From Pyrrhoderma lamaoense (taxonomy: Eukaryota; Basidiomycota; Agaricomycetes; Hymenochaetales; Hymenochaetaceae): a stretch of 64,000 nt of DNA. The notes beneath the pieces are model-generated. The model saw only the letters and a list, made by a program, of their open reading frames with translations, searched no databases and was not told the DNA's origin. The stretch covers positions 496,001 through 560,000 of the forward strand of contig NBAZ01000006.1 of the NCBI GenBank assembly GCA_002794735.1, written 5' to 3'. Both the position numbers and the translations under genes were made by a program. Within the stretch, counting starts at the first letter, position 1. Every line of letters begins with the position of its first letter. This document shows positions 1 through 28,875 of the stretch, one piece after another.

Positions 1-1656
1 AGCGAATTCAGAACAACGCGGTCTGAACTAAAATCATTAAACACATGCTGGTAATCAACACTCTGTGCAAATCTTCAGCTTACTTGAGTGATGTCGAGCT
101 ACTCATGACAATGCGGTGCTTGCGACAGCATCCGTAATGAGCGTCTAAACTTGTACTTGTGAAGATATTTTTGTTATCTCATCAATATCATAGGTCGTAC
201 CCTCCATCTTATGATCAATAGAAACATGCACAACAGCTCTCATGCAGCTCAAGCGTTGTCTACTTCATAGCACGGCGTATTTCCCATGTTCTGATACATG
301 CATTCCATAAATAATCTTTCTTGTAATTAGCCAAAGATTCCTGATTCCATACAACCAGCATACAACGTACATCATGACCTTTCGAAGAACACTCAATAGC
401 AGCCAGTCTGCGGGTTGGATCAGAAGCCTCATGCTATATGCATTACTCTCATGAATGATTCCCTTCCCTTCTCTCCTGCGTTACAAGGTATCCTATCAAA
501 ATCAAGTCCGTATTTAGGATAGTCCTCGATTCAATGACCATACAGGAGTCCAAAATTTCTGAATAACCCCAAAAGAAGCGACCAAAAGATCACTTCCATC
601 TGTGAGTTTGAGTCGGAGCTTGCGAGAGATGATAGGGAAACGCGTGTGCTATTCAAAGAGATTATGAGTCTCTTCTCTAAGCCGGATCTTCCGAGGAAAG
701 TAAAAACCATCAAAGATGGTGAAGATTTCTATGTTAAACACTAGGTTAATGAAAGTGTCTTGCCAGCAAGATCCTTGAGTTTCGAATTTATCTAGTATCG
801 ATGGTATCGAAGAAGAAATATAATGAAAATTGATAATGCATAAGTATCAAGACAAGATTGATGTTGGTTGTCTTCAACGTCAGATCTGCGCCTCGATCGA
901 GCCAGAGAGCCTTTCGTGTTGATTGTAGTTGCAATTGTAAACATAAGCACAGTATCTTGTGCGGTATCTGCAAGGACTCAGAGTGTAGCAAGCATAAGCA
1001 AGAAAAGTGACGACTCTGGGTGACTCGTATAATAATAATTTGGGACTCTGTGACAACTGATACCAACTATGTCACTTGGTTAGTATTCGGCGTGACACAT
1101 CACAGTTGTTACTTACTTACCAAACACTAATTTTATTCCGTCCCCCCGAACCATGTACACTATTATGAGACTTAGCTTAACGTGACCACTACCAATAGCT
1201 ATTAACTGGTCGATATGGCTATTTAACTTGATAAAACTAGGCTTAATACTATCATTGATAATATCAATGGTAATGAAAAAGCAACAAAACATCAACGCAT
1301 ATCAGCTGAGAGTAGCGACATTACCCCATTTGCTTAGCAATTGAGCTGTTGGAAGCTGATTAGAAGTGTTGTATCACATATGTAAGTTGTGCGTAAGCAA
1401 GTTAAGAAAAATCAATCCAGATTTCAGATTGTCACTGTTTCTGTGACAGAGATCATGGAATACACGTGATGTGACCAAACGCGATAGATTCAAAATTCTA
1501 ATTTGTGATCTGAGATTATAAAAGAAAATAATAATGTGGAAGAACCTTGTAAACTTCTTTGAGTAACTCTACGTTAAATAAAAGCTTTGATATGTAAATG
1601 TGATTCAAGTTACTAGTCTACGTACGAGGTTTCGTCCATAAAAAATGAATTCTCTA
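1..1656. repeat. Inter-gene spacer of the NWD tandem array (left-edge copy)
   Basis: No gene is supported here. The stretch resembles the other spacers of the array piece by piece. The first ~120 bases match the region just upstream of NWD-A (about 5810-5930), 380-720 matches about 6240-6560, and a block with CACGTGATGT near 1470 recurs in every spacer. Because the spacer lies upstream of a minus-strand gene, a further NWD copy probably starts just left of position 1. Short ORFs here are not conserved between spacers. Confidence 0.6.
1441..1499. repeat. Conserved spacer block with E-box-like CACGTG (copy 1)
   Basis: The block combines CTGTGACAGAGATCAT with ACACGTGATGT and an AT-rich continuation (GATAGATTCAAAATT). 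The same arrangement is found at about 7211, 7413, 13127 and, diverged, 18831. It lies 150-700 nt beyond the stop codon of the nearest NWD gene. CACGTG is a typical bHLH site; function here is unproven. Confidence 0.45.
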
Positions 1657-4600
1657 CTAATCGCGAACACGCAGAATCATGCAATATCCTAAGCTCTTCA
1701 TCAAACCTGGGATATCATCTGTAGGCTTACAAACATAACGACGCAAATCTTCAGGAATCCAAAATGCATGATCGTTTCCTTTAACCTTCACCCAGCCATC
1801 ATCTCCCATTTCCCACTCCGATTCTGACGTTCCTTGAGAAGGAGAAAACGATATGAATTGAGTATTTGTCGACGATTTCTTGGTAAACCCGTGTCTTTTG
1901 GAATTTGGAATTAGTTTGCCAACATCCCATATCTTGATAGTGTTGTCGGTCGAGCCTGAAACAACACGAGTGCCTTCAGGGGAAAAAGAAACAGAAATGA
2001 CGTATTTCGTGTGCCCTTCAAGGGTAGAAAGAAGCTTTCCATTCTTGGCATCCCATATTCTGATAGCACCATTGTCCGAACCTGTGACAACACGAGTGCT
2101 ATCAGGAGAGAAAGAGATGGAAAGGACCCGATCTGTGTAACCTTTAAGGACGGTAAGAAGCTTCCCATTCTTTGTATCCCAAATCCTGACAGTGTTATCA
2201 AACGATCCTGAGACAATGCGAGTACCATCAGGGGAGAAATAAACAGTAATAACACAATCTGTGTGCCCCTCGAGGGTAAAAAGAAGCTTTCCATTCTTAG
2301 CGTCCCATATTCTAATAGTTTTATCATCCGATCCTGAGGCAACGCGAGTACCATCATAAGAGAAAGAGATAGAATTGACGCAAGCTGTGTGCCCCTCAAG
2401 AGTGTAAAGATGCGTTCCGTTTTCGGCATTCCATATTCTTATAGTTTTATCGTCAGAGCCAGAAACAACACGAGTGCCATCAGGGGAGATAGAAACAGTA
2501 TTGATCCAATTCGTGTGCCCTCAAGGGTGAAAAGGGATCTTCCATTGTCAGCATCCCATATTCTGGCGGTCGTATCGAGTGAGCCTGAGATAACACGAGC
2601 ACCGTCAGAAGAGAAAGAAACTGAATTGACGCAATTCATGTGTCCTCTAAGGGTGTAAAGAAGCTTTCCACCCTTAGTGTCCCATATCCTGACAGTGTTA
2701 TCGAGCGAGCCTGAAACAGCACGAGTACCATCAGGGGAGAAAGAAACGGAAGTGAGGCAATCTGTGTGCCCTTCAAGGGTAGAAATAAGTTTCCCATTGT
2801 TGGCATCCCATATCCTGACAGTCCTATCGGCTGAGCATGAGACGATACGAGTACTATCAGGAGAGAAAGCCGCAGATATAGCATATCCCGTGTGCCCTAC
2901 TAAAGGCCGATGTCCAATCTCTTCGATCTTTAAAGGCGATATCACATTGCTCTGATAATGATCAACAACATCAGAACGCCCCTTTTCAATCTGCAGCATT
3001 GTCCGATATACTTGGACTGCGCACTGAGAGATGCACTCAGCATACTTCGTCACATTATCGTATACATCTTGTAAAAAGTTGGCCAGTCGCACATCATGAT
3101 CCTGATTTCTCATCAGCACCAAAACTCCGCCATCCTGGTATAAAAACTCACTGATATCCATGAAATCGCTTTAAGTAAAGCAGGTCCTACAGAATCATAT
3201 TCTCCCAACAAGCTCATCACCTCAATCCAAATCAGCAATTTCTCGTGTGCAAATTGTGAGAGCAATGTATGCGATTTCTTCGAGAACGGTGAGAGCGCTA
3301 ATGCATAAAACCATGATAAACAAGCCTCCCTTATAGAAAGGGGTATCTCCTTATCTAGTATATCATCTAAATACGGCATTTGCTTGTTTAAAACATGTAG
3401 ATATGTTTTCCCTGTAATAACACTATGCAAATTATTATTAAGTATATCCAAACGGCATACCACGTGTTTCTATATGTGGTCATTCATTAGTGAAATCTGA
3501 TACTTCAAAAATGAGAAGGTGCATACGTAGTCAAATTTTCTCTGATTGATAATCGCACTATTGTACAGGTGCAAGCTATAATCAACAATGCCGAATTCTC
3601 GGCGAATGTCTTCTAGTAACATCTTATTGATGGAACAAGCTCTTTCAGCCGTCCGTAAGGGATCTTCTTTCGGATATAGTTGCACATGGTGAACAGGATT
3701 CGAAGATGAAAGCAGTATGCGAGATATCTTCCGGTCCCACTCACTTGTGATCAGAAAACGGAAATTCCGTGGAAGCTTGGAGAAAAGTCCACTACTAAAG
3801 AGATCAAGAAAGGCATTCCTAGCTTCGGAGGATCCGTACTCAACCAATCCATCTAGAATGATGATCACTGGTCCGAGCATCGCTCGTGCGGAGTTTAGAA
3901 GAGGATGTAGTAACAGCTCCTTAAACTGTGTACCCATAGTCAAAATTTTGTGATAGGGCCGTGCATGGTTACTGATCTCGCTACCTATGATCGAATCGAA
4001 TGTCGAAAGTTGATAGGCGATCATTGGAATAATTGATTCGAGACTGATTGATTCATGGCGGAAGTATAGATATGCACCCAGTCTCTTGATACCTCTGAAA
4101 TATTCAGCAAGAGTGAGACTGAGAATACTCTTCCCACTACCAGGTGGTCCAAATAACCAGACGACGTTGCTGTCCGAGGTCGACATCAAGAGACTCGTAA
4201 TATTTGATATCACCTCAGCGCATGTACCCGGGGAACATCTTTTTCCATTATTAGATGTACAATATTCTAGAGGTCCTAATTGTCCCTTGATATCTTTATA
4301 GTTACTGATAAGATTGTATATCGCGTTTAGAACTGAAATACTTACATATGATATCGATTTGCTTCGATATACGTGCAACAACAAGAGCTGTATTCGTTGC
4401 CATAGCCGTATTTAATCGATTTTGTAACTTTTTTAAGACACCTTGAAATGATTTGATCTTCTCATAGCTCTCAATGAGTGTCATCCGCTCTGAATACATA
4501 GTCAAATTACTGTAGGTCTAAAAAAGAAAAGAGAAGTGCATACCAAAGAATCCATGACCCATGTACTCCCGAACAAAAGTACAGCATTCCGTTATTTGCT

Positions 4601-5671
4601 GAAGTATCTGAATGACAACAATCTCGAGACCCTTAAATTTTTCTTTTATGCCATTAATTTCTAGTACACAGTCCACAGTGAACGTCATCACGTCTATGAG
4701 GCCAACTACTTCCGCATCTGCTTTCAGTTGCCTTGACACGGCCTGGTACCAAGATAAGTATCATATATGGTGCATATCTATCAGATTATTCACCTCAAAG
4801 AAACTCTTTGCAATTCGCCAAGCAGCGTCTGAGTATGGGTGAACCTGATGATACAGTTTAACCTTCGTTTAGATTGCCAAATTAGAATGACGCACTTCCG
4901 ATAACCTGTCCACAACTTTTACAAACGTGCCCAGTTTCATTACAAGATGACCTATTGATACGTACAAGTCGCTCTGTTCAGCAACTAGTGACGAAATGTC
5001 TCCTGTCACTTCAATGAGACGAGATGATGGTCTCGCGTTACGAGCAACAACTTCTGATGTCTTTTCAATTAATGCCTTGTAGTCGAAAGGAGCACAATGG
5101 ATAGTGATTTTCCCTGGGCTTGGGAAAGAAGTAGCCACCAGATCAAGCGACACTGTGAGAATGGCAGTTAGCAACTATCATTGAGAGACCTATTTGATAC
5201 ATACCCTTTCCATCCATCGTTTTCAATCGGAGATCTTCGAGGGTAATCTCCAACTGACCGATAGTTGTGTCAACCTGGCTGACCGAATCATGCATAACCA
5301 CAATTCTAAGGACTGTTCCGTTATTCGATTGGTATCTAAAAGTGATGTATTAGGCATTATTCTAGTGGTGGTAGAGATACATACGGCCTGACTACTAATT
5401 GCTTCTCGCCAAATGAAGGTGACAGACTCTTCTTGACCGTAGACGTCCTAGCCTTCTCCTTCCCATATTCCAATATCACATACAAGCTAGGAGTCTTCTG
5501 TCGGCTGCGCCTTATTTTCTTCCAGTGATCGTCAATGATAGATACTTCTTGCACTGTAAGGACGAGTCTGATGAGAATAGCATGATATATAGTAGTAGGG
5601 GCTAACATACCTTGTATGAAGTAATCTAGCCTAAGGAGCACGTTTTTATCTATGTGTTCTAGCTGTGACAT
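1657..5671 (-). CDS. NWD-A: C2-NACHT-WD40 NLR-like protein (one apparent frameshift)
   Basis: STAND/NLR-like protein; relatives in fungi act in non-self recognition and cell death, but the ligand here is unknown. The start is the ATG at 5669-5671, followed by an intron. A C2-like domain spans two exons (about 5560-5395 and 5365-5210; LYVILEYGKEKART, then DTTIGQLEITLEDL). A helical region (about 5170-4340) holds TECCTFVREYMG. The NACHT exon (about 4320-3520) has Walker A GPPGSGKS and a Walker B reading VIIILDGLVEYG, where V replaces the usual second acid. A helical linker (3450-3180) leads to eight WD40 repeats of ~42 aa (2910-1920) and a tail with WIPEDLRRYVC. The frame breaks in repeat 4 at 2518-2520, where one base is missing from a C run; it is open before and after, to the stop at 1657-1659. 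Roughly ten exons. The long plus-strand ORFs here are antisense shadows. Confidence 0.85.
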
Positions 5672-5738
5672 GATGGTTTTTCAGGTAAGCTTGAGATGGG
5701 ATCTAAGCCTGAGTTGCCTCTTTGCCCTAAAGGCTTAA

Positions 5739-5753
5739 GTATATAACCCTTTG
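5739..5753 (-). promoter_or_regulatory. TATA-like core promoter element of NWD-A
   Basis: On the minus strand this reads AAAGGGTTATATAC, about 70 nt upstream of the ATG. The same AAAGGG-plus-TATA-like motif sits 48-70 nt upstream of NWD-B and NWD-D, and a diverged form precedes NWD-C. Its role as a promoter is inferred from position and conservation. Confidence 0.45.
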
Positions 5754-7210
5754 GTCTTTGTTCAAGTTTATAAATCGATCACTTCCATGCCACTGAATAG
5801 AAGAGTGGAGTAAGCGACGAATTTGGAACAGCAGCGGTCTAAACCAAAATCAATAAACACATGCATTCTGATTCAACACTCTTGTCACGGCCCTTTCAAC
5901 TGATCAGCTTGAAGTTATGTGAGTGAACTAATAAAAACTACTATGCATGTTAGTTACAGTGATGTCCTTGTGATAGTGTCTGTAATGAGCGCCGAAACTC
6001 ATTATGATCAACATATTCTGTTATCTTATCCATATCTGGTCGTACCCAGAACCTTGGGGTCATCAGATGTCAGCACTACGCCTAACTCGTGGTTCGAACA
6101 TCGTCCACTTGCCATCAAGTATTGCGTAATCGTCACATTCCAACACATAATTTCCAAAAATAATCCAATTATCATTTGGTCAGAGATTCCCGGTTTCGTA
6201 TTTTTAGTCTGTAACGTACAACATGTTCTTTCGAAGAGCCCTCAATAGCACCCAGTCTTCGGGCTGGATCAATTGCCTCAAGTTGAGTGCATTGTTCCCC
6301 CTTCTCTCCATTACAAGGTAGTCCTATCAGACTCAGATCCGTTTTTAGAATAGTCATCAATCCGATGATCAGATAGGAGACTCTAATCCGAGCACCCGTA
6401 GAATAAGTAATCAAAGGAACACAGTTGTTATTATTATTCGAAGCTCGAGAGATATGATAGAAGAACCCTCAAGTCATTCAAAGAGTCAGATTTTATGTGC
6501 TTCTTCTCTATATCGGATCTTCCGAGGGGAGAAAACGCTATTAAAGTTGGTGAAGATTCCCTTAGTGTTCGTGTGCGAGATGAGCTGGCACGATGCCATC
6601 AGAATGATACCAATGAGAATTCCATTACTTGAGCGTCAAGACAATATTTAATACGGTCTTCGTGCAACAGATATGCCTAAAAGAGGACTCCTTGGCGTTG
6701 ACTATAGTTGCAAGTGTAAACGTATATATAGCATTCTGCATATGCAGGGTTCAATCAAGCATAAGTGAGATAAGTGAAATATCCAGATGACTAATATAAT
6801 CGGGGACAATTTGAAAATTGAAACCAATTTATCACCATTTGTTTGTATAAGTAGTATTCAGAGTGACACATAACACTTGATACGTACTTATCAAACACTA
6901 AGTTTATTCCATATCTCCGTGCCCCATACACTTTTGTAACGGTCGATATTAATAACCGTCGGCTGGTCGTTATGCTGATCAGCATTATCAACCATTAGAA
7001 CTCGGTTTATTACCTATTGCGTTGGCGATATCTGTGATAACAGAAAAAAACATCGATACAAGTCAGCTAAGAGTAGTTTATCCACTCTTTTGATCCAGAT
7101 CACATATTTATGAAAGCTAGGTGTAAGTATGAAATTATATATGCAAGTTATGCGTCGCAAGTCATGAAAATTTAATACAGGCTAGTTGAAGATCCAGTCA
7201 GTCACTGTCA

Positions 7211-7243
7211 CTGTGACAGAGATCATACAACGCACGTGATGTT
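7211..7243. repeat. Conserved spacer block (copy 2)
   Basis: Shows CTGTGACAGAGATCAT followed by GCACGTGATGTTA. It is the first of two copies in this spacer. Confidence 0.4.
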
Positions 7244-7412
7244 AGTAGTAGCTTTCGGCTACATGCTGATTTGGCAGCTTCAAGTAACGTAGTCGGCCTC
7301 AGAAACTGCTTATGTGCACATCGCTTTTGATAGCAAACCTTTTGAAAAACGAAGCAAAAGTGAGGAAAAAGATATACAAGGATTCTTGAAGGAAAACTTG
7401 GATTGCAACGAA

Positions 7413-7463
7413 AGTCACGAGATACACGTGATGTTATTATTCGCGATAAATTCAAAATTGTGG
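7413..7463. repeat. Conserved spacer block (copy 3)
   Basis: Shows AGATACACGTGATGTTA and a following TTCGCGATAAATTC, very close to copy 4. The upstream GTGACAG part is missing. Confidence 0.4.
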
Positions 7464-7937
7464 GAACTTCACAAATCTTGCCCCTGATGATAAGAAAGTT
7501 GTCTTTTATGAGAATATAATTCGAAATTAAATAATATAGAATCTTGTTAAATGCAATACAAAGCACTAAGACCAAAAGAAAATATGGACTTGTTCAATAA
7601 GATAATAACAAGAGATTATTAGTGTACCTGTCTTACTTATCAAACACATACTTACTTTTGAAACAAGTATGTAAGCATCAACAAGGTATCGACTCATATC
7701 CAGATGTATCAACGTGTCAAGAGAAAGCAGAATCAGCATACACATTTCACACAATAATGACCTTTGCTCAGATGCTAAGCTAATCCCGAACTCACCTATC
7801 GTGAGCAGAAAATAAATAATATGAAGAGCCTTCATAGGGTTCTGTAATAATAAGACGTTAAAAAGAGATTTGTATATATACGTGCTTCACAGTTTAGGTA
7901 CATGCAAGGATGCGTTTATAAACAAATAAATGCTCTA

Positions 7938-10900
7938 TTAATCGCGAACACGCAGAACCATGCAATATCCTGATCTTTTCACCAAACTAGTGATATCATC
8001 CGTAGGCTTACAAACATGAGGACGTAAATATTCAGGAATCCAAAATGCATGATCGTTCCCTTTAACCTGTACCCAGCCATCATCTCCCAATTTCCACTCT
8101 GATTCCGATATTCCTTGAGAAGAGGGATCTGATATGAATTGAGTATTAGTTAACGATTGTTTAGTGAGCCTGTGTTCTTCGGAAGGTGGATTTCGCCTGT
8201 CAACATCCCATATACTGACGGTCTTATCTCCTGAGCCTGAAACAACGCGAGTGTCATCGAGAGAGAAAGTTATAGATGTAGCCCAATTTCTACGTCCTTC
8301 AAGGGAGAAAAGAAGCTTTCCATTCTTAGCGTTCCATATCTTTACAATGCTATCTTCCGATCCTGAGACAACACGAGTACCAATGGGAGAAAAAGAGACA
8401 GAGTTGACGCAATCCGTGTGCCTACAAGGGTAAAAAGAAGAAGAAGTCTATTATTGGTATCCCATATCCTAACCGTCCTATCTCCCGATCCGGAGATGAT
8501 ACGAGTTCCATCATGAGAGAAAGAGCAGATTTGACGCGATCTGTGTTCACTACAAGACTGAAAAGATACTGACCATTCACAGAATTCCATATTCTGATGG
8601 TATTACCGTCGGAGACTGAGACAGTGCGAGGATAAGCGGGAGACAAAAAAACGGAAGTGACGCGATCTATGCGCCCTTTAAGAGTGGAAAGAATTATTAC
8701 ATTCTTAGCAATCCATATCCTGACGGTCTTATAGTCCGAGCCTGACACACCACGTGTACCATCAAGAGGAAAGAGTGCCCTACTAAAGACAGATGCCCAA
8801 TCTCTTCGATCTCCAGAGGCGATATGACATTGCTCTGATAATGATCCGCAACAGCAGAATGCCCCATTTCAATCTGCAGCATTGTCCGATATACTTGGAC
8901 TGCGCACTGAGAAATGCACTCAGCATATTTTGTCATATTATCGTATGCATCTTGTAAAAAGATGACCAGTCGCCCATCATGATTCTAATTTCTCGTCAGC
9001 ATGGACTCTTTGTCATCCTAGAATAAACACTTACTGATATCCATGAAATTGCTTTAAGTAAAGCAGGTCCTACCGAGCTGTATTCTCCTATTAAGCTCAT
9101 CACCTCAATCCAAATCAGCAGTTTCTCGTAAGCAAATTGTGAGAGCAAAGTATGCAATTTTTTCGAGAACTGTGAGAGCGCTAATGCACAAGACCATGAT
9201 AAGCAAGCCTCCCTCATAGATGGTAGTATCTCTTTGTCAAGTATAACATCTAAATCAGGGATTTTCTCGTTTAGGGCATGCATACTTTTTCTGGATGCAA
9301 TAATGCTCTTCAAATCTGCATTCAATGTTTCGAGATGCCATGCTATATATTTCTATTATCTATAATTAGCGGGGTCCATTGCATCAACTTTCAGAAGACA
9401 CGTACGTAATCAAGCTGAGGGAGGCCGTTTTGATGGCTAGTAGGGCTCTCGTAGAAATGCAGGTTATAATTACATTCTATATCTCCAAACAGCGTCTTGA
9501 GCAAGTTAATTTCATTAGCTATATGCGAAGCGGCATTCGTGCTATCCCCTGCTGAATATAGATGAACATGATGAACAGAGTTTGGCGATGAGAGCAATGA
9601 ACAAGATATATCCCTATCCCATTGGCTAGTAATCAGAAATCGGAAGTTTCTAGGAAGCTTGGAGAAAAGTCCACTGCTGAAAATCCTAAGAAAGTCCTCC
9701 TAGATTCAATTGGTCCACAACCATCCACTCCATCTAGGATGATGATCACTGGCCCACGCATAGCCTGTGCTGCTTCAGTAAGAGGCTGTAGTAACAGCTC
9801 CTTGAACTGCGTTTCTATAAGCAATCCTTTGTGATAGGGCTGTGCACAGTCACTGAGATTACTCCCTATAGTCGAGTCAAAGGAAGCAAGCTGGTATGCG
9901 ATTGTCGGGATGATCGATTCAGGACTAGGTTCTGTTTCATGACGGAAGTGTAGATATGCACCCAGTCTCTTGGTCCCTCTGAAATGTTCAGCAAGTGCAT
10001 GGCTGAGCATACTCTTTCCACATCCAGATGGTCCGAATAACCAGATAATATTGCTGTCTGTAGTCAACACTAATAGATCCTAATATTTGATATCACCTCT
10101 GTGCATGTCCCGGGCACACCTCTTAATGTTTTGATGTATAATACTCTTTAGGTTCTAATTGTCCCTTAATATCTTTATAGTTGTTGAGATGTGCGTATAT
10201 CGCATTCAGGAATGAGATACTCACATATGATATCAATTTTCTTCGACATACGCGCAACAACAAGAGCTGTATTCGTCACCATAGACATGTTTAATCGATT
10301 TTTCAACGTTCCTAAGACATCTCGAAATGATTTGATCTTCTCATAGCTTTCGATCAGCGTCATCCGCTCTGAGTATATTATCAAATCATTGTAGGGCTAA
10401 GGGGTGAAAATAGAAGTACGTACCAAAGAATCCATGACCCATGTACTCCCGGATAAAAGTACAGCATTCCGTAATTTGCTGAAGTATCTGGATGATAACA
10501 AGCTCGAGGCGCTCAAATTTGTCCTTCACACCATTAATTTCTAGTACACAATCCACAGTGAACGACATGTCATCTACGAGGTCAACCACTTCTGCATCTG
10601 CTTTCAGTTGCTTTGACACGGCCTGGTACCAGTATAAGTAGTATAATTTAGTACATTTCTATCGATCTACTCACATCGAAGAAACTCTTTGCAATCTGCC
10701 AAGCAGCGTCTGAGTATGGGTGAATCTGATATTGCTGTTCAATCTTCATTCAGTTCGCAGATTTAATAATGACACACTTCCGATAACCTGTCCACGACGT
10801 TTCACAAACGTGCCCAGCTTCATTACAAGATTGCCTATCGATATATACAAGTCGCTCTGTTCAGCAACTAGCGACGAAATGTCTCCTGTCACTTCAATGA

Positions 10901-11548
10901 GATGAGATGTTGTAATTGCGTTGCGATCAACTTCTTCTCCCGTCCTTGCAACTATTGCCTTATAATCAAGAGGCTCACAGTGGATGTTAATCGTCCCCGG
11001 ACTTGGACAATAAGAGGATTTCAGGTCAAGCGACACTGAAATCAGTTAGCACGTATTAATGGATAACTTTATGAATGCAAACCTTTCCCGTCTATCGTTT
11101 TCAATCGCAGATCCTCAAGAGTAATCTCCACTTTACCGATGGTTGTGTCAACCTGGCTAATCGAATCATGCATGACCACGATTTTGATAATTGTTCCGTT
11201 ATCCGGTGGTGATCTAGAGGTGACGCATTAAGTAATGTTATGACAGTAGTGGGGATGCTTACGGTCTGACTACTAATTGCTTGTCATCAAAGTTAGGTGA
11301 AAAACTGTTATTAACCGTCCTCGTCTTGACCTTCTCCTTCCCATATTTCAATGTCACGTACAAGCTCGGAGCTCCCCGTAAACTGAGCCTTGTTTTCTTC
11401 CAATAGCCTTCACTAATAGATACTTTTTGTACTGCAGATTGTCGATTTGTAAATACAATATAGTATATAGTAGTAGGAACAAACATACCTTGTATGAAGT
11501 AATCTGGCCTAAGGCCATAGGTTCATATACTTGCTCTAGCTGCGACAT
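7938..11548 (-). pseudogene. NWD-B: degenerate C2-NACHT-WD40 paralogue
   Basis: Same layout as NWD-A with the ATG at 11546-11548: C2-like exons (about 11440-11270 and 11220-11090), helical region with TECCTFIREYMG (10620-10390), NACHT exon (10110-9400) with Walker A GPSGCGKS and a Walker B reading LDGVDGCG, helical linker (9330-9040), about five WD40 repeats (8790-8180) and the tail (WIPEYLR). Three breaks are one-base losses in homopolymers (10079-10080, 9680-9683, 8421-8422) and may be sequencing errors. Two others are not. About 4 nt are missing in the third WD repeat near 8530. In the first WD repeat (8766-8781) a segment between VGH and the DGTR strand is deleted. The repeats are also the most diverged of the four copies (GRID and VVNT in place of GHT). 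It is probably a decaying copy. Confidence 0.65.
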
Positions 11549-11610
11549 TAGGATTTGCCAGGTGAGACTTGAAAAGGCGGTCTGAGTCTGAGTTGCTTTC
11601 TTGTCTTTAG

Positions 11611-11625
11611 TTATTTATCCCTTTG
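11611..11625 (-). promoter_or_regulatory. TATA-like core promoter element of NWD-B
   Basis: The minus strand reads AAAGGGATAAATAA about 65 nt upstream of the NWD-B ATG, matching the element of NWD-D almost exactly. Confidence 0.45.
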
Positions 11626-13126
11626 CTCTGAGTTATAACTCTTCAATTGGATAATTATGTGTCACTAAATGGATGAGTTACTCATAGTGGAGTAAGAAAC
11701 AACAGTCTTAATCGGGATTAATAGGTACATACTTGGTAATTCAGCACTTATGTTGCATCCCTCTTAGCTTGAAGTTACGTGTGAGATACAAAAGTTAGCA
11801 CACGAATAACAGTGAGGCACCTGTGATAGCATCAGTAATGAGCACCTAAGCTCATGCTTGTGACGGTATCTTTATCATCTCACCTAAATCCAGTCATACA
11901 CTTTATCTTAGGGCCATCGAATACAGCATAACACCTTACATGTGGTTCAGGAATTATTCACTTTCTATCTGAGCACTGTGCAATCATCACATTCCGACAC
12001 GGGATTTCCAACGAGAATCTACCTTTCAAGGAAGAGTAATCTTTATATTCCCTGCTTCACATAATTAATATACAACATACATCACAACATCTTCTTGAAA
12101 TTTCCTCAATATCAAATGGTCTGCAAGTTGGATCGGGTGCCTCATGTTGAATGCATTGTCCTCATGGAAGCTTCTCCTCGTTAGTCCTTAAAATCTGAAT
12201 CTACAATTCTTAATCTATTGACCAGATAAGGATCTATAATACCGTATAACCTTAGAATAAGTGGCCAAAAGCACATTTATTTTGTAAATTTGAGTTGGAG
12301 CTTGATAAAGATAATAAGAAAACCCTTAACCATTCGAAGAGACAGATTTCATGTGCTTTTCTCCTGTGCCGGCCTTCCGAGGAAGCAAATGCCATCGAAT
12401 TTATTGGATATGTCCACTTTTTTCACTATGATACTATCCCCCTTACATGGCAATGATTTTTCAGCAAGACCTGAGAGTTCCGTGCATGAATTGAGCTAGG
12501 GTCGGTGCCATCGAGGAAAAAGCAAACAGAAATTGACGATGCTTCAAGACAAGATTTGATACTATCTTCTTTGGCGATCAATCCACGTTACTATTGGTAT
12601 AGAGGAGCTTTTCTTGTTTATAAAGCTACAAGTACTATGTGTAAATATAGCGTCTTGCACAGTATCTGCAAAGGTTCAAAGTGTGCGCAGGCCTAGTGAG
12701 AAAAATGATGTGTCACCAATGGACTAGTGTCTTATTGGGATAGTGTGACAACTAATACTGTTAATGTCACAAGTTATCAAATATTCGGCATGACACGTCT
12801 TAGGTTATACTACGTACTTAACGCCAATTTAATACTGTCCTCCAAATTACACACATAACTATGAGAATTGGACTTAGTGACAACCATCGAATCTAGCTGC
12901 TAGCTGATCAATATGTTTCTTCGTACTATCAATCGTTAGAATCTTGCTTGATACTTCTCGTGTTGATATCACCTTGATTATGAAATGTTTACACATGGAA
13001 GCCGAGAATAATGGCATCTCCTCACTATATGAGCATATAAGAAGTATCACAAAGAAGTATAAGTACTTAGTTATATATGTACGTTTTGCGTGCACAAGCA
13101 CATTATACAGGCTAAGAGGAGACTCT

Positions 13127-13180
13127 GACTGTGACAGGGATCATGAGATACACGTGATGTTACTATTCGCGACAAATTTG
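13127..13180. repeat. Conserved spacer block (copy 4)
   Basis: Shows CTGTGACAGGGATCAT, then AGATACACGTGATGTTAC and ATTCGCGACAAATT, the most complete form of the block. Confidence 0.45.
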
Positions 13181-13617
13181 AAGTCAGAATTGTGATAACT
13201 CCATAGATAATGCCCATGACGATAAAGAAACTAGCTCATTGATCTATATAATTATCTGCTTGAGCACGATACAAAATACTCCAGATTGAACGAAACATGG
13301 AACCGCTTCTGATAAGATATGAAGGATCCTTACTGTACCATATCCTGTCCCATCTGCCACGATCATCACCACTTTTTAAGAGGTCGTATATACATTAGTA
13401 ATTTTATTCGAGATTCGTTCTGATTTTAGAAAAAGTCCTGTCACTTCTAGTAGCCCTTTCTAAGCACTAAACACATCTCGGGAGCAAAAATATATAATAG
13501 GGAAATTCTCATTAGAAAACTTGAATTAACGTGACTCCAAAAGGTGCTTTAATATAAGAGATTGCTTCATGAATATAGGCACGTATACAAGGATGGGTAT
13601 CTAAGCACATATTAGCA

Positions 13618-16600
13618 CTACTGGCTGTGTACATGTAGAATCAAGCAATATCCTAGTGACTTCATCAGATTGTTGATACTATCTGTGGGTCTACAAACAT
13701 AACGACGCAGATTTTTAGGGATCCAAATCGCATGATCGTTCCCCTCAACTTTCACCCAGCCATCATCACCCATTTCCCACCTTGTTTCCGACATACTTTG
13801 AGAAAGGGATATCGATTGAGCATTCATCGACAGTTCTCTGGCGAATAAGTGCTCTTTAGAGTACAAGTTTTGCCTGTCAACATCCCATATCCTGACGATC
13901 TTATCTCCTGAGCCTGAGACAACGCGAGTTCCATCAGTAGAGAAAGCCACAGAAGTGACCCAATCCGTGTGCCCTTCGAAAGTGGAAAGAAGCTTTCCAT
14001 TTCTGGCATTCCAGATTCTAACAGTATTATCGTCCGCGCCTGAGACAACACGAGTGCTATCGGGGGAGAAAGAAACAGATCTAACCCAGAAGGTGTGCCC
14101 TTTAAGAGTGAAAAGAAGTTTTCCTTTCTTTGTGTCCCAAATCCTGACGGTTTTATCACCCGATCCAGAGACAACCCGAGTGCCATCAGCAGAAAAGGCT
14201 ACAGATCCGATCCAAAGTGTGTGACCTTTTGAAACAGAAAGAAGTTTTCCGTTCTTAGCATTCCATACTCTGACAGTCTTATCTTCCGATCCTGTGACAA
14301 CCCTCTTGCCATCAGGAGAAAAAGAAACAGCTCTGACGTAATGTGAGTGTCCTACAAGGGCAAGGAGTTGCTTTCCATTTTTGGCATCCCAAATCCTAAC
14401 GGTCATATCATACATGTTTGAGGCGATACGTGTACCATCGGGAGAGAAAGCAATAGTGCTGACTCACTCCGTAGTCTTTTCGAGGGTAGAAAGATTCTTT
14501 CCATTCTTAGAATCCCACACCTTAACAGTCTTGTCGACCGAGTCTGAGACAACTCGTGTGTCATCAGCAGAGAAGGTAACAGACGAGACATAGCCTGAGT
14601 GTCCTACAAAAGGCCGATACCCGATCTCTTCGGTCTTCAGGAGCGAGGAAATATTGCTCTGATAATGATCCGCAACATCAGAATGCCCCTTTTCAAATAG
14701 TAGCATGGACCAATACACTTGAATCGCACATAACGAAGTACATTCAGCGTACTTCACCACAAGATCATGTGCATTCTGTAGAAAGGTGACTAGTTGCTCA
14801 TCATGATCCTAAACTGTCGTTAACATGAGATCCTTGTTATCGCATCAGATACACTCACTGATATCCATGAAATCGCTTTAAGTAAAGCAGGCCCTATGAA
14901 ATCATACTTCCCCATCAAGCTCATCACCTCTATCCAAATTAAAAGTTTTTTGTGAGCAAATTCTGAGAGCAAATCAAGCGTTTTCTCCGAGAACGGTGTC
15001 TCTGACAAATCACAAGACCATGATAGGCATGCGTTTTCGTAAAAGGTGATATCTCGGTTCTAAGTAAATCTTCTAAATCTGGTATTTGCTTGTTCAAAAC
15101 ATGCATATGATTCTTCCCCGTAATAATGCTATTCAAATGATTATTCAGTATAGCCAAATTCAAAACGTTTTTCTTCTGTGAGGTATTATCAATTAGCGAA
15201 TTATGATATTTAAAGCGTGAAAAGTGCATACGTAGTCAAATTGATAATGATCATTAATTATGCTGCTGTAGAGGTGAAAGGCATAATCACCTGTGTCGAA
15301 GTCTCGGTGAATGTCTTCTGGTAACACTTTGTTGGTTAAATCAATTGCATTAGCTATCATCAGGGTGTCCTCTCCCGGATATAATTGCACATGGTGAATG
15401 TGATTCGAAGATGAAAGCAATGCAAGAGATATCTCTCGATCCCATTCACTAGTGATCATGAATCGGAAGTTTCGAGGAAGCTTGGAGAAAAGTCCACTAC
15501 TAAAGAGCTCGAGAAAGGCACTCCTAGCTTCGATAGGTCCATATTCATCCACCCCATCCAGGATGATAATCACTGGTCCTAGCATAGATCGTGCTGCTTC
15601 AGTAAGAGGCTGTAGTAATGATTCCTTAAACTGTGTCTCCATAGTCAATCCTTTGTGATAATGTTGTGCATGATTACTAATCTCGCCGCCTATGGTCGAA
15701 TCGAAAGTAGAAAGCTGATATGCGATTGTTGGGATAATTGATTCAGGACTAGCTGATCCATGGCGGAAGTGTAGATATGCACCCAATCTCTTGATCCCTC
15801 TGAAATATTCAGCAAGAGTGAGACTGAGCATACTCTTCCCACATCCTGATGGTCCGAATAACCAGACGATATTGCTGTCTGAAGCTGACATCAAGAGACT
15901 CGTGATGTTCGATATCGCCTCAATACATGTACCTGGATCACATTTTGCAGCAAGAGATACATGATATTCCATAGGCTGTAGTTGTGTCCTGATATCTTTC
16001 CGGCTGTCAGTATGGATACATCATATTTAGAAGTGAAGCACTCACACATGATATCTATCTGCTTAGACATACGCGCAACAACAATTGCTGTACTTGTTGC
16101 CATAGTCGGATCTAATTTACCTCTTAATTTAGCCAAGACATCTCAGAAAGATCTAATTTTCTCGTAGTTCTCGATAAGGTTCATCCTCTCTGTACGCATT
16201 GTCAATACATTATAAACGTTGAAATATAGAGGAGTTCGTACCAAAGAATCCATATCCCATGTACTCTCGGACAAAGATACAACATTCCGTAATTTGCTGA
16301 AGAATCTGGATGATAACAATTTCAAGGCTAGAAAATTTGTCCTTCATGCCCTCAATCTGTAGTATACAACTCATAGTGAACGTCAAGTCATCTACGAGGT
16401 CAACCACTTCAGCTTCCGCGTTCGGTTGATTTGACACGGCCTAGTACTAGGATAAGCGTAATATTTGGCATATATCTAAAAATTTACTTACCCCTTCCTT
16501 TTTCTCTCCACTCTTCGCGATTCTCCAAGCAGCATCCGAGTATAGATGAATCTGAAGTTACCGTTTACCGTTTAGTCTTCATTACGATTGTCAAGTTATA

Positions 16601-17386
16601 AATGACGTACTTCTGATGACCTGTCTATAACTTTAACAAAATCATCCAGCTTCACTACGAGATTATCTATCGATTCATTCAAGTTGCTCTGCCTAGCAAT
16701 TAGCGACGAGATGTCTCTTGTCACTTCAATGAGATGAGACGATCGTTTCGCGATACGGGCAACTTCTTCCCCTGTTTCCGCGACTAATGACTTATAGTCA
16801 AAAGGCTCGCAATGGATGGTGATCGTCCCCGCACTTGGATGGGGAGAAGACATCAAATCTAGTGTCACTATGAGAATGCCTATTAGCATTATCATTGAGC
16901 ACAGTATTGGATACGCACCTTTCCCATCTATCGTTTTTGATCGCAAGTCTTCAAGCTTAATCTCCATTTGACCGATAGTTGTGTCAACCTGGCTGACCGA
17001 ATCATGCATAACCACAATTCTGATTTTCGTCCCTTTATCGGATGACGAACTAGAAATTGTGTATCAGGCGGTGTCCTGACAGAAGGTGCCAATACTCACG
17101 GTCTGACTACTAACTGTTTGTCTTCTAACGAAGGTGACAGGCAGTTATTAGCTGTCCTCGTCCTGACCTTCTCCTTCCCATATTCTATTATCACATACAA
17201 GCTTGGAGCCTTTCGTCGGCTGCGCCTTATTTTCTTCCAAGAAGCTTCGCTTATAGATACTTCTCTAACTGTGAGGATGAGTAAAGTAAGTACAGTATAG
17301 TATATAGTGATAGGGATTAACGTACCTTGTATGAAGTAATCTGGTCTATGTCCTGTTGCTTTTTTGGTCCCTTTAGACTGGGACAT
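13618..17386 (-). CDS. NWD-C: C2-NACHT-WD40 NLR-like protein (in-frame stop in WD region)
   Basis: Third tandem paralogue; start ATG 17384-17386. C2-like exons lie at 17290-17100 and 17040-16920, the helical region at 16870-16050 (TECCIFVREYMG), and the NACHT exon at 15970-15230. This copy keeps the most canonical ATPase: Walker A GPSGCGKS and Walker B VIIILDGVDEYG. The linker exon (15190-14870) has one apparent frameshift where one T is missing from the run at 15034-15037. Six WD40 repeats follow (14620-13870), then the tail to the stop near 13618. In repeat 2 an in-frame TGA (14464-14466) sits where the family has Trp, and the flanking EGHT is EKTT. Reading continues in the same frame on both sides of it. 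As written the product would lose five of six WD repeats. It is either a nonsense allele or a recent pseudogene. Confidence 0.8.
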
Positions 17387-19395
17387 TCCGATTTTCTGAG
17401 TGAGCCCAAGATGTTAGCACAACGTTAACCTCTTGCTTGTTGGTTCAAGTTATAGCCCCCTCCTTGTCTACAGCATTTCAACCTGTGCTTTGTATCAAGG
17501 ATTTCAATCGGCCATTTCCGCATCACTAGTTAGTAGAGTGAAGGATCAGATCCGGGATCATAGCAGTCTGATTTGAAAAGTTGACAAGTACATACCCAGT
17601 GATTCAATGCCCATTCTGGGTCGCCTCATTACGAAAGCAAGATGGATCGAAGCGCCCTATTAGTTTAGTGCTTCGTGAGTGTGATACAAAAACAACCACA
17701 CATGGTAATGTAGATTTTGTAATAGTATCCATTGGGGGGCGTAAACCCAAAACTTTGTGTACCCAGGCAGGTGTATAATCTTTGGCAAAGTGGGAGCTAT
17801 ACGCCAATTCGAAGAGGCCACAAAAATCATCGGTTAGAGGTCAGATACATGGATAAAAAAACCCTGCATGAAATTTAGATGCCATCGTTTGCTACTAGAA
17901 ACTTGCTTGATTATCATATTCCGACAAGTATTCTTATGAGAATCTTACTCTGGAATTAGTTGATGATCACCAGCTTTCCAAACTAGGTATACAGCATACA
18001 TCACGGCCCTTCGATGAACAAGAAAACGTCATTCACAATCTGTCAACAGCTTTGATAAGGCGCACATTGAGAAGTACAATTGATTTGGGCGTTAAGATTT
18101 CCCCTTCACAAAATGACAGCTTAAAAGTACCAAAAGATGATTCTAACCTACTAACTCGGGAAGGAGACTCTAGTTCCGAACAACATATAGATGACCATAA
18201 GCACACTTACATTCGCACTAAGATCAAGAGAGATAGTAAGTAAAACTCGGAAGCCCTCCATAGTACGAGTTTTATGTGATTTTTCTCCGAGCTGTATCCC
18301 CCGAGGAAGCACATGCCATCAAAGATAATAAGATGTCCACCTTTTCTCTTTATTGAGAGACTACTATCCTACACTGGAGTAGAGCCATCAACGAAAGCAC
18401 GGAACATTGTGTATAAAAGGTATATATCCTAGCAGAGAAATGACTGTTGGAGAATGTTTGAGAGTCAAGACGCGACTTTCTAGAGGTCTTCGTTAGAAAC
18501 TAATTAATCAACATCCCAGAAAACTCCTGGTGATTTGATTTCGGTTTCATGAGCTCAAAGCAATTTTCGGATTCCTTGTGGGAATAGGCTCAGTAATACC
18601 CTTTGTTGCTAGCTATTACTAACTAAGCTAGGTCGCTGATCTAGCAACTCCGACTGACAGAATATGGCTCGCTACTTTCATACAGATTATGTTTTGGACA
18701 CAGATTATCCAGAAATATCGGCCCTTATTCCATTCACTTAGCAGAATAACTTAAGGTCGTTGTTTGTACATGTACACTAGAACGCTCATAAGTTGTTAAA
18801 ATAAGAAAATCTTTGACCCAGAAGATCCAGACTGTGACAGACCACAAGATACACGTCACTTGGCATTTCTCTTTTGCAGGAATCAAGATTTATCATGTAT
18901 GACATAGAGCATTGAATAGCTTCGCAAAATCATGCTCAGATGATGAGATGTCCATGTTTCTCGTAAGAGCTTTCCTCGAATATGAAGGTTCTGTCCACTA
19001 GTTTTTGTGAAAAACTTGCTCAATTGCAATATGGAGCAATCAGGGATAGTCTATATATCTCTGCTAGAATGATGAAGGAGTTCTGCGAGATTGTATCTTA
19101 TCTATCTTGCAAGAACTTACTTTCCGAACACTCTTGTACACAACATTGAGAAAAATAGAAGATCATACTCTGCTCGCCATGAATACGCAAAATTTGCTTT
19201 AACTCATCACGTTGTATTCAGCCTTACTCGAATACTAAGCAGCTACTCACTTAACTCACTGGAAGTGAAATTTGAACGTATAGACAATAACTATAGAATA
19301 TCATAGACGTCGTGACGTCAAAGAGGCCTTTGATATGAATGTGCTGCAAAGTATAAGTGAACATACTAGGCGAATTTGTGTACAACTTTTATACA
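17387..19395. repeat. Spacer between NWD-C and NWD-D
   Basis: No gene is supported. It shows weaker but recognisable similarity to the other spacers, including a diverged copy of the conserved block at about 18831-18860 (ACACGTCACT in place of ACACGTGATG). The small plus-strand ORFs at 17581, 18052 and 19091 have no recognisable content. Confidence 0.45.
17449..17462 (-). promoter_or_regulatory. Diverged TATA-like element of NWD-C
   Basis: The minus strand reads GGGGGCTATAACTT about 65 nt upstream of the NWD-C ATG, at the place of the conserved element in the other copies. Only the G run and the TATA core are kept. Confidence 0.3.
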
Positions 19396-22300
19396 CTAAT
19401 AATCGCGAACATCTAAAACTAAGCAATATCCTAATGTCTTCATCAAACCTGGGATATTATCTATAGGGCTACAAACATAACGACGTAAGCTTCTAGGGAT
19501 CCAAAATACACGATTGTCCCTTTCAACCATAATCCAGCCATCATGTCCCATCTCCCATTCCATTCCCGATTTACCTGTAGGAGGGGAATACAATATGCAT
19601 GATGCGTTAGTCAATGTCTGTCTGGTGAGTTTATGTCCTTTGTTATCTGTAATTCGCTGATTCACATCGTAGATTTTGACGGTCTCGTCAAAGGAGCCTG
19701 AGACAACACGAGTCCCATCAGGAGAGAAAGAAACAGAAGCGACCCAAAGCGTGTGCTCTCGAAAAGTAGTAATAAGCTTTCCATTTCTAGTATCCCACAT
19801 CTTGATAGTGTTGTCTACTGAGCCTGAGATAACACAGGCACCATCAGCAGAGAATGCTACAGTTTTGACGCAGCCCATGTGCCCTTCAAGAGTGAAAAGA
19901 AGAATTCTATTCTTTGAATCCCAAATTTTGACAGTCCTGTCGTCCGAGCCAGAGGCAATACGTGTGTCATCAGGAGAGAAAGCAACAGATCTTACCCACG
20001 CCGCGTGCCCTTCAAGGATAGAAAGAAGCCTAACATTTTTAACATCCCAAATTCTGACAGTCTTGTCAAGCGAGCCTGAGACGACACGGGTACCATCAAA
20101 AGAAAAAGCAACAGAACTGACTTCCTTAGTATGCCCCTCAAAAGTAGCAAGAAGCCTTCCATTATTGGCATCCCAGATCCTGATGGTCTCATCTAACGAG
20201 CCAGAGACAATGCGAGTGCCGTTCGGAGAGAAGGCAACAGAAATGACCCGATCATTGTGTCCTTTAAAATTGAAAAGTAGTTTTCCATTCTTAGTATCCC
20301 AAATCCTGATCGTCTTATCAAACGAACCTGAAACAACACGAGTGTCATCAGGAGAGAAAGCAACAGAAGTGACTCCTCCAGTGTGGCCTTTGAAAGTAGA
20401 AAGAAGCTTCCCATAACTAGCATCCCATATTCTGACGGTCTTATCAACTGAGCCAGAAACAACAAGGGTGCCATCTGCGGAAAAAGCAACAGACAAGACA
20501 TCGCATGTGTGCCCCACAAATGGTCGATATCCGATTTCTTTGATCTGCACAGATTTTACGACGCTAGTTTGATAATGGTCCGCAACATACGAATGCCCTT
20601 TTTCAATCTGTAACATTGTTCGATAGATTTCAGCTGCAGACTGCGAGATGCACTCAGAATATTTTATCACAACATCGTACGCATCTTGTAAGAAGGCGAC
20701 CAGTTGCTTATCGTGCCCCTTGATTGACGTGAGCAAGAAATTCTTGTCATTCTAACCAGATAACACTCACCGTTATCCACGAAATTGCCTTAAGTAAAGC
20801 AGGTCCAACCGAGTTATACTCTCCTATCAAGCTCATCACCTCGATCCAAGATAGGAGTTTCTCGTAAGCAAAACGTGAAAGCAAAGTATGAGCAGGGTCT
20901 GAAAACGGTGTACTGGATAAAGCACAGGGCCACCATATGCATGCATCCCTCAAGTAGGGAGAAATGGTTTCTTCAAGTACTTTCTGTAAATCAGTTATCT
21001 GCTGGTTCGGGACCTGGAGATGCTTCTTTTCCATAACTACACTCTTTAAATTGATGTTAATTGACTCCAATATCTTCATGTTCCAGGGTATACATGCCTG
21101 AATCAACAGTAAGGGATGTAACAACTTCTGGAGCGTTGATTGACGTACATGCACATAGTCATAGCGCAGCTGATTTTTAGGTGCTTCCTTCTCTGTCTCT
21201 TGATGTGAGGTATAAAATGGCTAAAAATTTCCTCGGCTTGGTCCCTAGAAGCCATAAAATCCCACATTCTTTTTACATCCCAAAGTACAATTTGAGTGTC
21301 ATCAGCACAAGCCCGGAGCATTTCAGTAATTTCTTCATCGCTCTCGCTTGTTGCGGTGATAAGGAAGCGGTAGTTGCGGGGAATGTCAGAGAAAAACCCT
21401 TTTCTACAAAGCTCAAGTACAGCCTTATTTATCCCATCGAGAATGATGATCACCGAACCACGAACGGTATGCTTGGCCTCCTTGAGGGGTTGCAGAAGAT
21501 ATTCCCTGAATTGTGTCTCGACAGACAACTCTCCGTGATAACGCTTCACATTATCTGTGATTGTACGAGCAAGACTCGAATCGAAGCTTGCGAGTTTGAA
21601 AGCAATAGTTCGGATGATGGAACCTGGGCTATGAGAGTGATCGTCGAAGTGAAGATATGCACCCAACATAGAAACGCTGTTAAAGTATTCGGCGAGGGTA
21701 AAGCATATAGTACTTTTTCCACTTTATGTAACCCGTGCAACCAGACGACATTGTTCTTTGAGGTTGACATCAAGAACCCTTGATATGAGAAACAACATCA
21801 TGACAAGTACCCGGGTCACATTGTTTCATGTGAGATGCATCAAATCTGATAGGTTCCAATTTGCTAGACAGATCTGAGTTCATTATTAACATCACTCATG
21901 ACTCTTTTTTAGTGCATTTACCTACACAATATATTGATTTCTTCCGATATACGTGCAACAACTAGCGCGGTATTCGTAGTCACTGTCAGCTCGAACTGAT
22001 TCCTCAAATCTGCTAATGCACCCCGGAACATTAGTATCTTCTCATACCCGTTCATGAGAAACATGCGTTCTGTATTGCAGAGAAGTAAAATAATCATGCT
22101 GTTTACGAATGTAAGTAGTACACACCATGGAATCTAAAGCCCATATAGTCTTGGATAAACTCGCAGCAAACAGTGATCTGTCCCCAAGACGAGTAAACTT
22201 GTCATTGATGGCTCTGATTTCCAAGACACAGTCGAGAGTTATTGTCATATCCTCAACCAAGTTGACTACTTCGGCATCTGCTTTCAATTGTTTTGTAATA

Positions 22301-23218
22301 CCCTGAAAGTAACTTGAGAAAATGGTAATAATAAAGTAACAGGAATTCCCACCTCGTAGAAGCACTTCGCAACTTGCCATGCTGCGTCTGCATATGGGTG
22401 GATCTATTGATATGAAATGATACAATTGTTGGTCTAACTTAGGAATATCATACCTGTGATATCTTGTCTATAAATTTTACAAATGTATCCAGTTTCATCA
22501 CTAAATCTCCTAATGATGAATACAAGTCGTTCTGCTGAGATATTAGTGACAACGTTCCCTCTGTTACTTCGATGAGACGATATGATGATTTAGCATTACG
22601 AGTAACCACCGTGGTAGTTTCCTCCATCAATCGCATGTAGTCGCAAATGTCGCAATGGATGATAATCGTACCAGATACCGAATCGTCTGTAGATATTAGA
22701 TCAAGTTTGACTGTAGCAATTACTTAGTTACCACCTCAACACAAGATAATATATTGATACCTTCTCCATCTTTCGTTTTCATTCTAAGATCTCCAAGAGC
22801 AATCTCTAATCGACCAATGTCTATATCAGATAGCACAGAGGATTCGTGCCTAGCAGTAATTTTGAGTTTAGTATCTTCAGCTGTTGGTGCGCTGTATATC
22901 ACAATTGCTCAGTTGAATGACAGTGAGTACTATGTTCCATTGGAAACTCACGCACGGACAACGAGCGGGTTATCACTAAAAGTGGGTGACAGATCAGTCT
23001 CAGCTGTATCCGTCTTCTTCATTTCGTTCCATATTCTATTATCACGTATATATTTGGTGCTTTACGTCTACTACGCCTCACTTGTTTCCACGAATGTTCA
23101 CTGATTGTCACGCTTTTCACTAGTAGAGCAAGTTCAGCACAAATATGATAGTAATCAGAATGAGACTACCTCGTAGAAAGTAGTCTGGCCTAGCTGAGAT
23201 GAGATCCTGGCAAGCCAT
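19396..23218 (-). CDS. NWD-D: C2-NACHT-WD40 NLR-like protein (intact WD exon, lesions upstream)
   Basis: Fourth and most diverged paralogue; start ATG 23216-23218 (MACQDLISARPDYF), then C2-like exons near 23120-22970 and 22900-22750. The helical region (22640-21950) lacks about nine residues of the conserved VIIQILQ stretch and changes frame there (near 22185), picking up again as QITVCCEFIQDYMG. The NACHT exon (21780-21150) is out of frame in Walker A because one T is missing at 21723-21725; with it the site reads GLHKSGKS. Walker B is LDGINKAVLE, shorter than in its sisters and without the second acid. The last exon, 19396-20736, is an uninterrupted 446-aa frame with seven near-identical WD40 repeats and the WIPRSLRRYVC tail. 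Several lesions upstream of a perfect WD exon suggest either recent decay plus read errors, or conversion of the WD array. Confidence 0.8.
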
Positions 23219-23279: not shown

Positions 23280-24397
23280 CTTCGCGATTATATTCTGATT
23301 TATACTTCAATAGGTTACTTCCTGTGACTCTAAGTCACTGCTAGCCCGAGGGGTCTGTGTAGGATCTTCAGTATCTATCTACAGAAGGGAGAGAAGAGTG
23401 CGGCGACTGACAAATTCGGAATATCATTAATCTGGACATGAATCGTGTATACCTGCTCATTCACCGCCCTCGCCATCTAACAGTTTCCTTATCAGCGCAA
23501 AACGGCCAACTGACCAACATCGTCAGAACCGTGTCCCTGGACTCTACTGAAGTTGAAACGGCCATGTGGTCATTGCTTGTTATCATTATTCCTACAATTG
23601 AGATGCAACAAAGTCACTGGCATCGATTATATTCTAAGTCAAACAGCACATCGCAATACTGTATCATTAGGCGAAGACATGATAGAAGCGATACATTTCT
23701 GCCATCTCATTTTATCTACTATAGTTTGTTAGCCTAGGCTAATATTTAAAGGCAAACACGCAGATTAAGCAATGCAAACATGAAGAAAACACGCAGCACT
23801 AGATTAAAGAAATCAGCTCCATTTTCAGGGCTATTGTATGCTATGACCTCTAGAGGAAAAAGTTGAAGTAAAAAGTAAAAAAAGATGGAGAAAAGGACGT
23901 ACTCGTGGTATTTGCATTGTGCACTACTAAGCCTTATGGCGTGCTTCCATTACGCCAAAGAGCCTCAATCAGAATCAGCTTGAGAAATTTCATGTGCAGT
24001 TACATGGTTGAAAAAAAAGTTATGGTTGTTGGAAAAAGATACCGGTATACAAAGTCAGATCCTAGAAGGAACTGGAATATATTCATGATTTGAGCCCGTG
24101 GATAATTATATACTGTATTTGCTTTTGTAGCATGTTTATTGCTGTTGTTCCGTACCTCAAAACCAACTTTTCCGAGGGTTCAGAAAGCTGTTTGGGCACG
24201 CAGGCACTGAAGCAGTATTCAGCAAATCCCTGGGAAACATGATGCACGTATATCACTATATGAATGTGTGACAATTTATTAGAATACATAATACAATAAT
24301 AATATTCATTGATATAAAAATCATACTAGTACTTATGAGTCAGCGTCACATGTGTACTTTGTAGGCAAATTAGTAAGCAACGTTTGTTGTTGACTTC
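23280..24397. other. Right edge of NWD array, no gene seen
   Basis: Similarity to the array spacers fades after the NWD-D promoter. The plus-strand ORFs at 23438 and 23905 and the minus-strand ORF at 24083 have no recognisable motif or splice-supported structure. I see no RNA gene or repeat. Confidence 0.4.
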
Positions 24398-28791: not shown

Positions 28792-28875
28792 CGTCTCGTT
28801 GGTATATTTGTGAGTCTAGCCTCTGCAGTAATCAATGAACATTTAATTTTGTATGCACAACAGGATCACATGATC

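Follow-up and report, generated by a model that had tools for sequence, protein, structure and literature searches.

A seven-copy tandem array on contig C6

The stretch under study, hereafter the window, comprises 64,000 nucleotides of the Pyrrhoderma lamaoense genome (contig C6, positions 496001-560000), and between its positions 1657 and 23218 lie genes of the fungal NOD-like receptor (NLR) type, in which a C2 domain, a NACHT nucleotide-binding core and WD40 repeats follow one another. A sequence-only reading had described four head-to-tail paralogues on the same strand with a shared exon plan, and this description was borne out: the four genes, g1-g4, are direct repeats on the minus strand, mostly in register at 5.8-5.9 kb, with introns at common positions. 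The count of four holds for the window only, as the true array numbers seven. Using the NACHT exon of g3 in a protein search of the genome (30.65 Mb in 72 contigs; the single genome analysed), we located three further copies, A, B and C, just outside the window at ~482, 488 and 494 kb of the contig. All seven were confirmed by blastn; the array thus extends over ~480.5-519.2 kb and the window boundary cuts through it. The features inside the window are given below in window coordinates, with the start codons of g1-g4 counted by hand from the reading frames.

1657..5671, minus strand: g1, C2-helical-NACHT-helical-WD40 on a ten-exon plan, the WD40 exon bearing a single frameshift, near 2519
5672..7937, no strand: g1-g2 spacer, with stretches that match the A-B, B-C, C-g1 and g2-g3 spacers
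7938..11548, minus strand: g2, pseudogene bearing 7-9 frameshifts (with B as reference, near 11512, 10799, 10125, 10081, 9698, 8765, 8526 and 8425)
13618..17386, minus strand: g3, pseudogene interrupted by in-frame TGA codons (16145, 14466) and by one frameshift, near 15043
19396..23218, minus strand: g4, A-subtype pseudogene bearing 4-5 frameshifts (near 23030, 22185, 21778, 21725, the last at the P-loop, and about 21200)

As the spacers share stretches, the duplicated unit is the gene together with its spacer. Two array spacers have a short open reading frame in common (L031 5349-5498; window 1116-1301), which was considered as a small spacer gene and rejected: across its 42 codons the three codon positions carry 5, 5 and 6 substitutions, which gives no sign of coding.

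Exon plan and frame lesions

Copy B consists of ten exons separated by nine GT-AG introns of 50-57 nt, and when joined these form a single open frame of 1186 amino acids (aa); copy A likewise has ten exons and one open frame, of 1076 aa. All nine introns recur at identical reference positions in g1, g2 and g3, and eight of them were called in g4. Intron lengths of around 50 nt and the relatives of the genes suggest an agaricomycete. Lesions were scored in the seven copies with a spliced aligner that penalizes frameshifts and stops, using A and B as references under three penalty settings. Neither A nor B was assigned a lesion, and the clean alignment of one to the other at 53 % identity (47 % of residues differ) serves as an internal control. 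For C the aligner reported 9-13 frameshifts and up to two stops; the ranges given above for g2 and g4 span both references and the three settings, and both TGA codons and the frameshift of g3 were recovered in all six runs. Copies g2, g3 and g4 are therefore clear pseudogenes. The single frameshift of g1 appeared in all three runs against B, whilst against A it was avoided by a 77-nt intron with weak sites; g1 may have been broken recently, may be misassembled or may be spliced in an unusual way.

Repeat-induced point mutation (RIP) was rejected as the cause of decay, given that the RIP indices of the broken copies fall within the range of the intact ones and do not separate the two. The NWD family of Podospora anserina also includes pseudogenes, according to PMC1805685, two of three with RIP marks, whereas none were seen in the array.

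Domain content

A domain search for C2 and NACHT passed the cut-offs for both on the first 775 aa of joined B: C2 scored 35.4 bits (cut-off 22), NPHP3_N, a NACHT-type core, 83.0 bits (cut-off 24.8) and NACHT itself 27.2 bits (cut-off 26.7). On single exons of g1, g3 and g4, NPHP3_N exceeded its cut-off and PF05729 NACHT stayed under its own; the C2 matches of single g3 exons were likewise sub-threshold (15.0 and 15.7 bits), and it was the joining of exons in B that lifted C2 above the cut-off. The P-loop reads GPSGCGKS in B and GPHGSGKS in A, and WD40 repeats with a period of 42 aa give strong PF00400 scores (303.7 bits in g4, 195.6 in g3). With a NACHT core bearing a P-loop, C-terminal repeats and a recognized N-terminal domain (C2, in joined B), these genes have the tripartite build of fungal NLRs, and their placement among NLR-type proteins stands. 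HET is absent from the list of 14 families obtained with joined B, the N-terminus of which is C2. The corresponding parts of g3 and g4 are as follows.

16800..17268, minus strand: g3 C2 domain, split over exons 2-4; the end is approximate, transferred from copy B
15447..15906, minus strand: g3 NPHP3_N match, with P-loop GPSGCGKS, Walker B IIILDGVDEY and the sensor ITSEWD lacking Arg
14859..15231, minus strand: g3 intron plus exon 9, the latter being the second helical segment; they come after the NACHT linker, at the place of the winged-helix segment in relatives
13849..14604, minus strand: g3 WD40 array of 42-aa units; ends counted by hand
19633..20514, minus strand: g4 WD40 array of seven 42-aa units within a single open frame, with hand-counted ends

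The N-terminus had been called a membrane/Ca2+-type C2. Its identity as C2 is upheld by the score of B, but a Ca2+ type is doubtful: in an alignment to dysferlin C2A, itself weak (E 0.036), B has Asn for Asp in loop 1 and His for Asp in loop 3, positions which we take to hold Ca2+ ligands.

Two parts of the nucleotide switch are missing

The nucleotide switch is held to be central to signalling by signal transduction ATPases with numerous domains (STAND), and two of its canonical features are missing from the array. Walker B and the helix LLxWFEVLSL lie 175-198 aa apart in six of the seven copies (g2 could not be measured), compared with 298-328 aa in five of six relatives from the same genome and 323-327 aa in three of five proteins from other species, the remainder being unmeasurable. 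Within this stretch all five measurable own-genome relatives carry an HxSFxDYL-like motif, whilst the array copies are ~135 aa shorter there and without it (6/6 measurable). In B, the exons flanking the winged-helix place are separated by only a 53-nt intron, so no exon has been overlooked there. The second missing part is the sensor arginine (TSR, in the motif ITSRPE), which is found in none of the seven copies; all 15 own-genome rows, which represent 14 loci that we selected among those retrieved, keep it, as do 10 of 11 rows from other species, the eleventh not covering the site. The P-loop, in turn, is kept in six of the seven copies. In a limited search of the literature on fungal, truncated, Hymenochaetales and basidiomycete NACHT/het genes (including PMC4986451, PMC10197012 and PMC12258605), no NLR described as lacking both winged helix and sensor Arg came up, and we claim no more than that.

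A relative in Pyrrhoderma noxium and the age of the loss

A protein search with whole B was dominated by WD40 proteins; in one with residues 1-770 the nearest named relative was P0072 (a 'WD40 domain containing protein' of Pyrrhoderma noxium), which has 37 % identity with B across 776 columns of the alignment. It too lacks the winged-helix segment and the sensor Arg, with a Walker B-to-helix distance of 192 aa, although as annotated it begins after the C2 region. In a tree built from 34 NACHT rows, 33 of them distinct, P0072 and the array group at 100/100, and P0072 groups with A and g4 at 96/84. The simplest reading of these groupings is one loss before the lines of A, B and P0072 parted, and parsimony on the tree thus favours a single early loss of both parts. 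P0072 is not encoded in the genome studied here: its best-scoring rows are 34-58 % identical, and among the matches listed none exceeds 67 % (short WD40 pieces).

An AlphaFold2 model of P0072 contains the NACHT core, a stretch (318-372) with a predicted local distance difference test score (pLDDT) below 50, helices and a propeller. Its best Foldseek match was Apaf-1 (3sfz, E 2.2e-15), a protein built of CARD and NB-ARC with a winged helix; whole-chain superposition of the two is, however, poor (template modelling score, TM, 0.18 by query).

Selection and segment exchange

The ratio of non-synonymous to synonymous substitution (dN/dS) in the part before the WD40 repeats is 0.14-0.30 in 21 of 21 pairs, which suggests that the switchless form was long kept by selection; the C2 region alone reaches 0.49 (B-C). 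Identity between B and g2 is uneven, at 92-96 % in four NACHT windows and 60-88 % elsewhere, and the stretch after NACHT exists in two types, one in B, C and g2 and the other in g1 and g3. From this mosaic, segments were probably exchanged between array copies.

The WD40 repeats compared with HET-E/HNWD

The array had been likened to the HET-E/HNWD type, with fast-evolving repeats, and put forward as a candidate immunity or incompatibility locus. HET-E, HET-D and HET-R of P. anserina do share with it a NACHT core followed by 42-aa WD40 repeats, but their N-terminus is a HET domain where the array has C2. We took the repeats in fixed steps of 42 aa from A, B, g1, g3 and g4, which yielded 4-8 regular repeats per copy, and converted the numbering of HNWD sites from the repeat printed in PMC12222747. 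The five positions of the repeat that vary most fall on the high-dN/dS sites of HNWD given there, and dN/dS at these sites exceeds that at other sites in four of five copies (pooled, 0.43 vs 0.33), with values of 0.13-0.91 by copy, the highest in B. By this counting method within one genome, no copy exceeds 1, and diversifying selection at the repeat sites is thus not seen. Nor are the repeats as alike as those of HNWD: their mean identity is 49-69 % in the five scored copies and the maximum 81 %, as opposed to over 80 % and up to 100 % in PMC12222747 and to the level of over 80-85 % that marks high conservation. The variable positions may represent the ordinary surface pattern of WD40 proteins.

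C2-NACHT genes elsewhere in the genome

Genome-wide we found at least 90 PF05729 NACHT matches and 47 PF00168 C2 matches, the array copies appearing in neither list because their exons score low one by one. Twenty-five of the 47 C2 matches sit 0.9-1.3 kb upstream of a NACHT piece on the same strand (138 NACHT pieces considered), and C2-NACHT genes are therefore common in this genome. The C2-led form is thus not special to the cluster, nor is it new in print: C2 is given as an N-terminal domain of NLR candidates in a few basidiomycetes (Dyrka et al. 2014, PMC4986451, in the portion accessible to us). Those candidates share the C2 N-terminus, and it is the C2 domain that the portion names; the array differs in belonging to a branch without winged helix and sensor Arg and in its seven copies.

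The 138 NACHT pieces are densest on contigs C30, C14, C28, C43 and C35 (15, 12, 11, 9 and 9, respectively). Pairs such as C16:72104 and C30:143766 score identically and may be uncollapsed haplotypes or recent duplications. One related gene (L044, C27:112907-113869 with flanks) has a P-loop exon, a winged-helix-like motif and an 855-aa WD40 exon frame.

Neighbouring genes

A Clr2 relative was supposed to lie beside the array at 24377-25186. Of the two exons scanned, the second reached 15.8 bits for PF16761 (cut-off 27) and the first gave no match, so that the name is unproven. At 51001-52074 on the plus strand there is an Argonaute exon, with Piwi and ArgoL2 over their cut-offs and PAZ just under.

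Interpretation

We favour, at a probability of about 0.63, an NLR cluster evolving by birth and death, which is of a switchless variant and has largely decayed in this genome; its survivors would act as partners or regulators of full-length C2-NACHT-WD40 proteins. Gene-plus-spacer units of ~5.85 kb would have been duplicated in tandem, would have exchanged segments and would then mostly have decayed, so that of the seven only A and B, which lie outside the window, are intact. The branch would have lost the winged-helix segment and the sensor Arg prior to the split into its two subtypes, whilst the C2, helical and WD40 regions were kept, together with the P-loop in six of seven copies. Surviving copies would most likely bind ATP without the ordinary ADP-locked off state; C2 would serve in docking to membrane or lipid, probably independently of Ca2+, and C2 together with the WD40 propeller may allow them to act on the full-length C2-NACHT-WD40 proteins of the same genome. 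A more specific version, in which a P-loop-bearing switchless branch, held under purifying selection through a deep split, supplies a membrane-docked partner, decoy or brake of full-length C2-NLRs, is put forward tentatively and at less than even odds.

Several observations weigh against this picture. The case for retained function comes from two intact genes and one named protein, the model of which is middling (mean pLDDT 62.9, predicted TM-score 0.34, 12 rows). As NLR content varies between strains, the absence of P0072 may be a strain-level matter, although the deep split (37 %) holds. A search with copy A (E 1e-10, 7998 candidates) returned two distant look-alikes and no further member, nor did it return P0072, and its reach is therefore limited. 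Between the subtypes (A and g4 vs B, C, g1, g2 and g3) dS is saturated, so that the weight is carried by the 11 within-group pairs (0.19-0.30); pairwise values also blend the periods preceding and following decay, and they were computed without codons close to gaps, frameshifts or stops. Evolution is faster in the stretch after NACHT, with dN/dS of 0.20-0.61 where measurable (0.61 for g1-g3). As regards the winged helix, the motif pattern matched the seven closest of 20 other own-genome loci and missed 13; nine of these 13 were inspected and the motif was visible by eye in seven, the other two being one truncated frame. Finally, P0073 retains the length of the segment but not the motif.

Alternatively, the whole branch might be a relic in which loss of the switch ended function, A and B being merely the last copies without a lesion. 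This is the most serious competitor, but still a doubtful one. Lesions occur in five of the seven copies (in g1 with one of the references only) and Walker B departs from LDALDE in all seven, most in A, C, g1, g2 and g4, as a relic would predict; yet the tree puts the loss before the split of A, B and P0072, all three of which have open frames, and the dN/dS values of 0.14-0.30 also speak against it. We consider it unlikely that the array functions as a HET-E/HNWD-type locus of incompatibility or immunity that senses membranes and has rapidly diversifying WD40 repeats. Its NACHT-WD40 order, the position of its variable sites and the higher dN/dS there are what such a locus would show, but all four in-window copies carry lesions, the N-terminus is C2 rather than HET, the repeats fall below HNWD level with no copy above 1 in dN/dS, and such positions may vary in WD40 proteins generally. 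For these four genes the proposal fits poorly; an incompatibility role would be conceivable mainly for A and B. It is very improbable that most of the lesions stem from faulty assembly and that the organism has all four genes intact. Such a reading would suit the single frameshift of g1, which vanishes if the aligner may use an odd intron, but not the two in-frame TGA codons of g3 or the many lesions of g2 and C, and both copies A and B of the same array and a thymidylate synthase in the same window (27886-28815) have full-length open frames free of such damage.

The birth-and-death reading makes the array a clear example of this process in NLRs, with seven paralogous units side by side, the majority of them broken; by comparison, the NLR clusters of Sordariales contained two to five NLRs, and only 16 of the 272 were made up of paralogous copies (PMC12258605). 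If A and B work, they would constitute a natural NLR-type protein without a nucleotide switch, for which full-length relatives in the same genome would be at hand for comparison.

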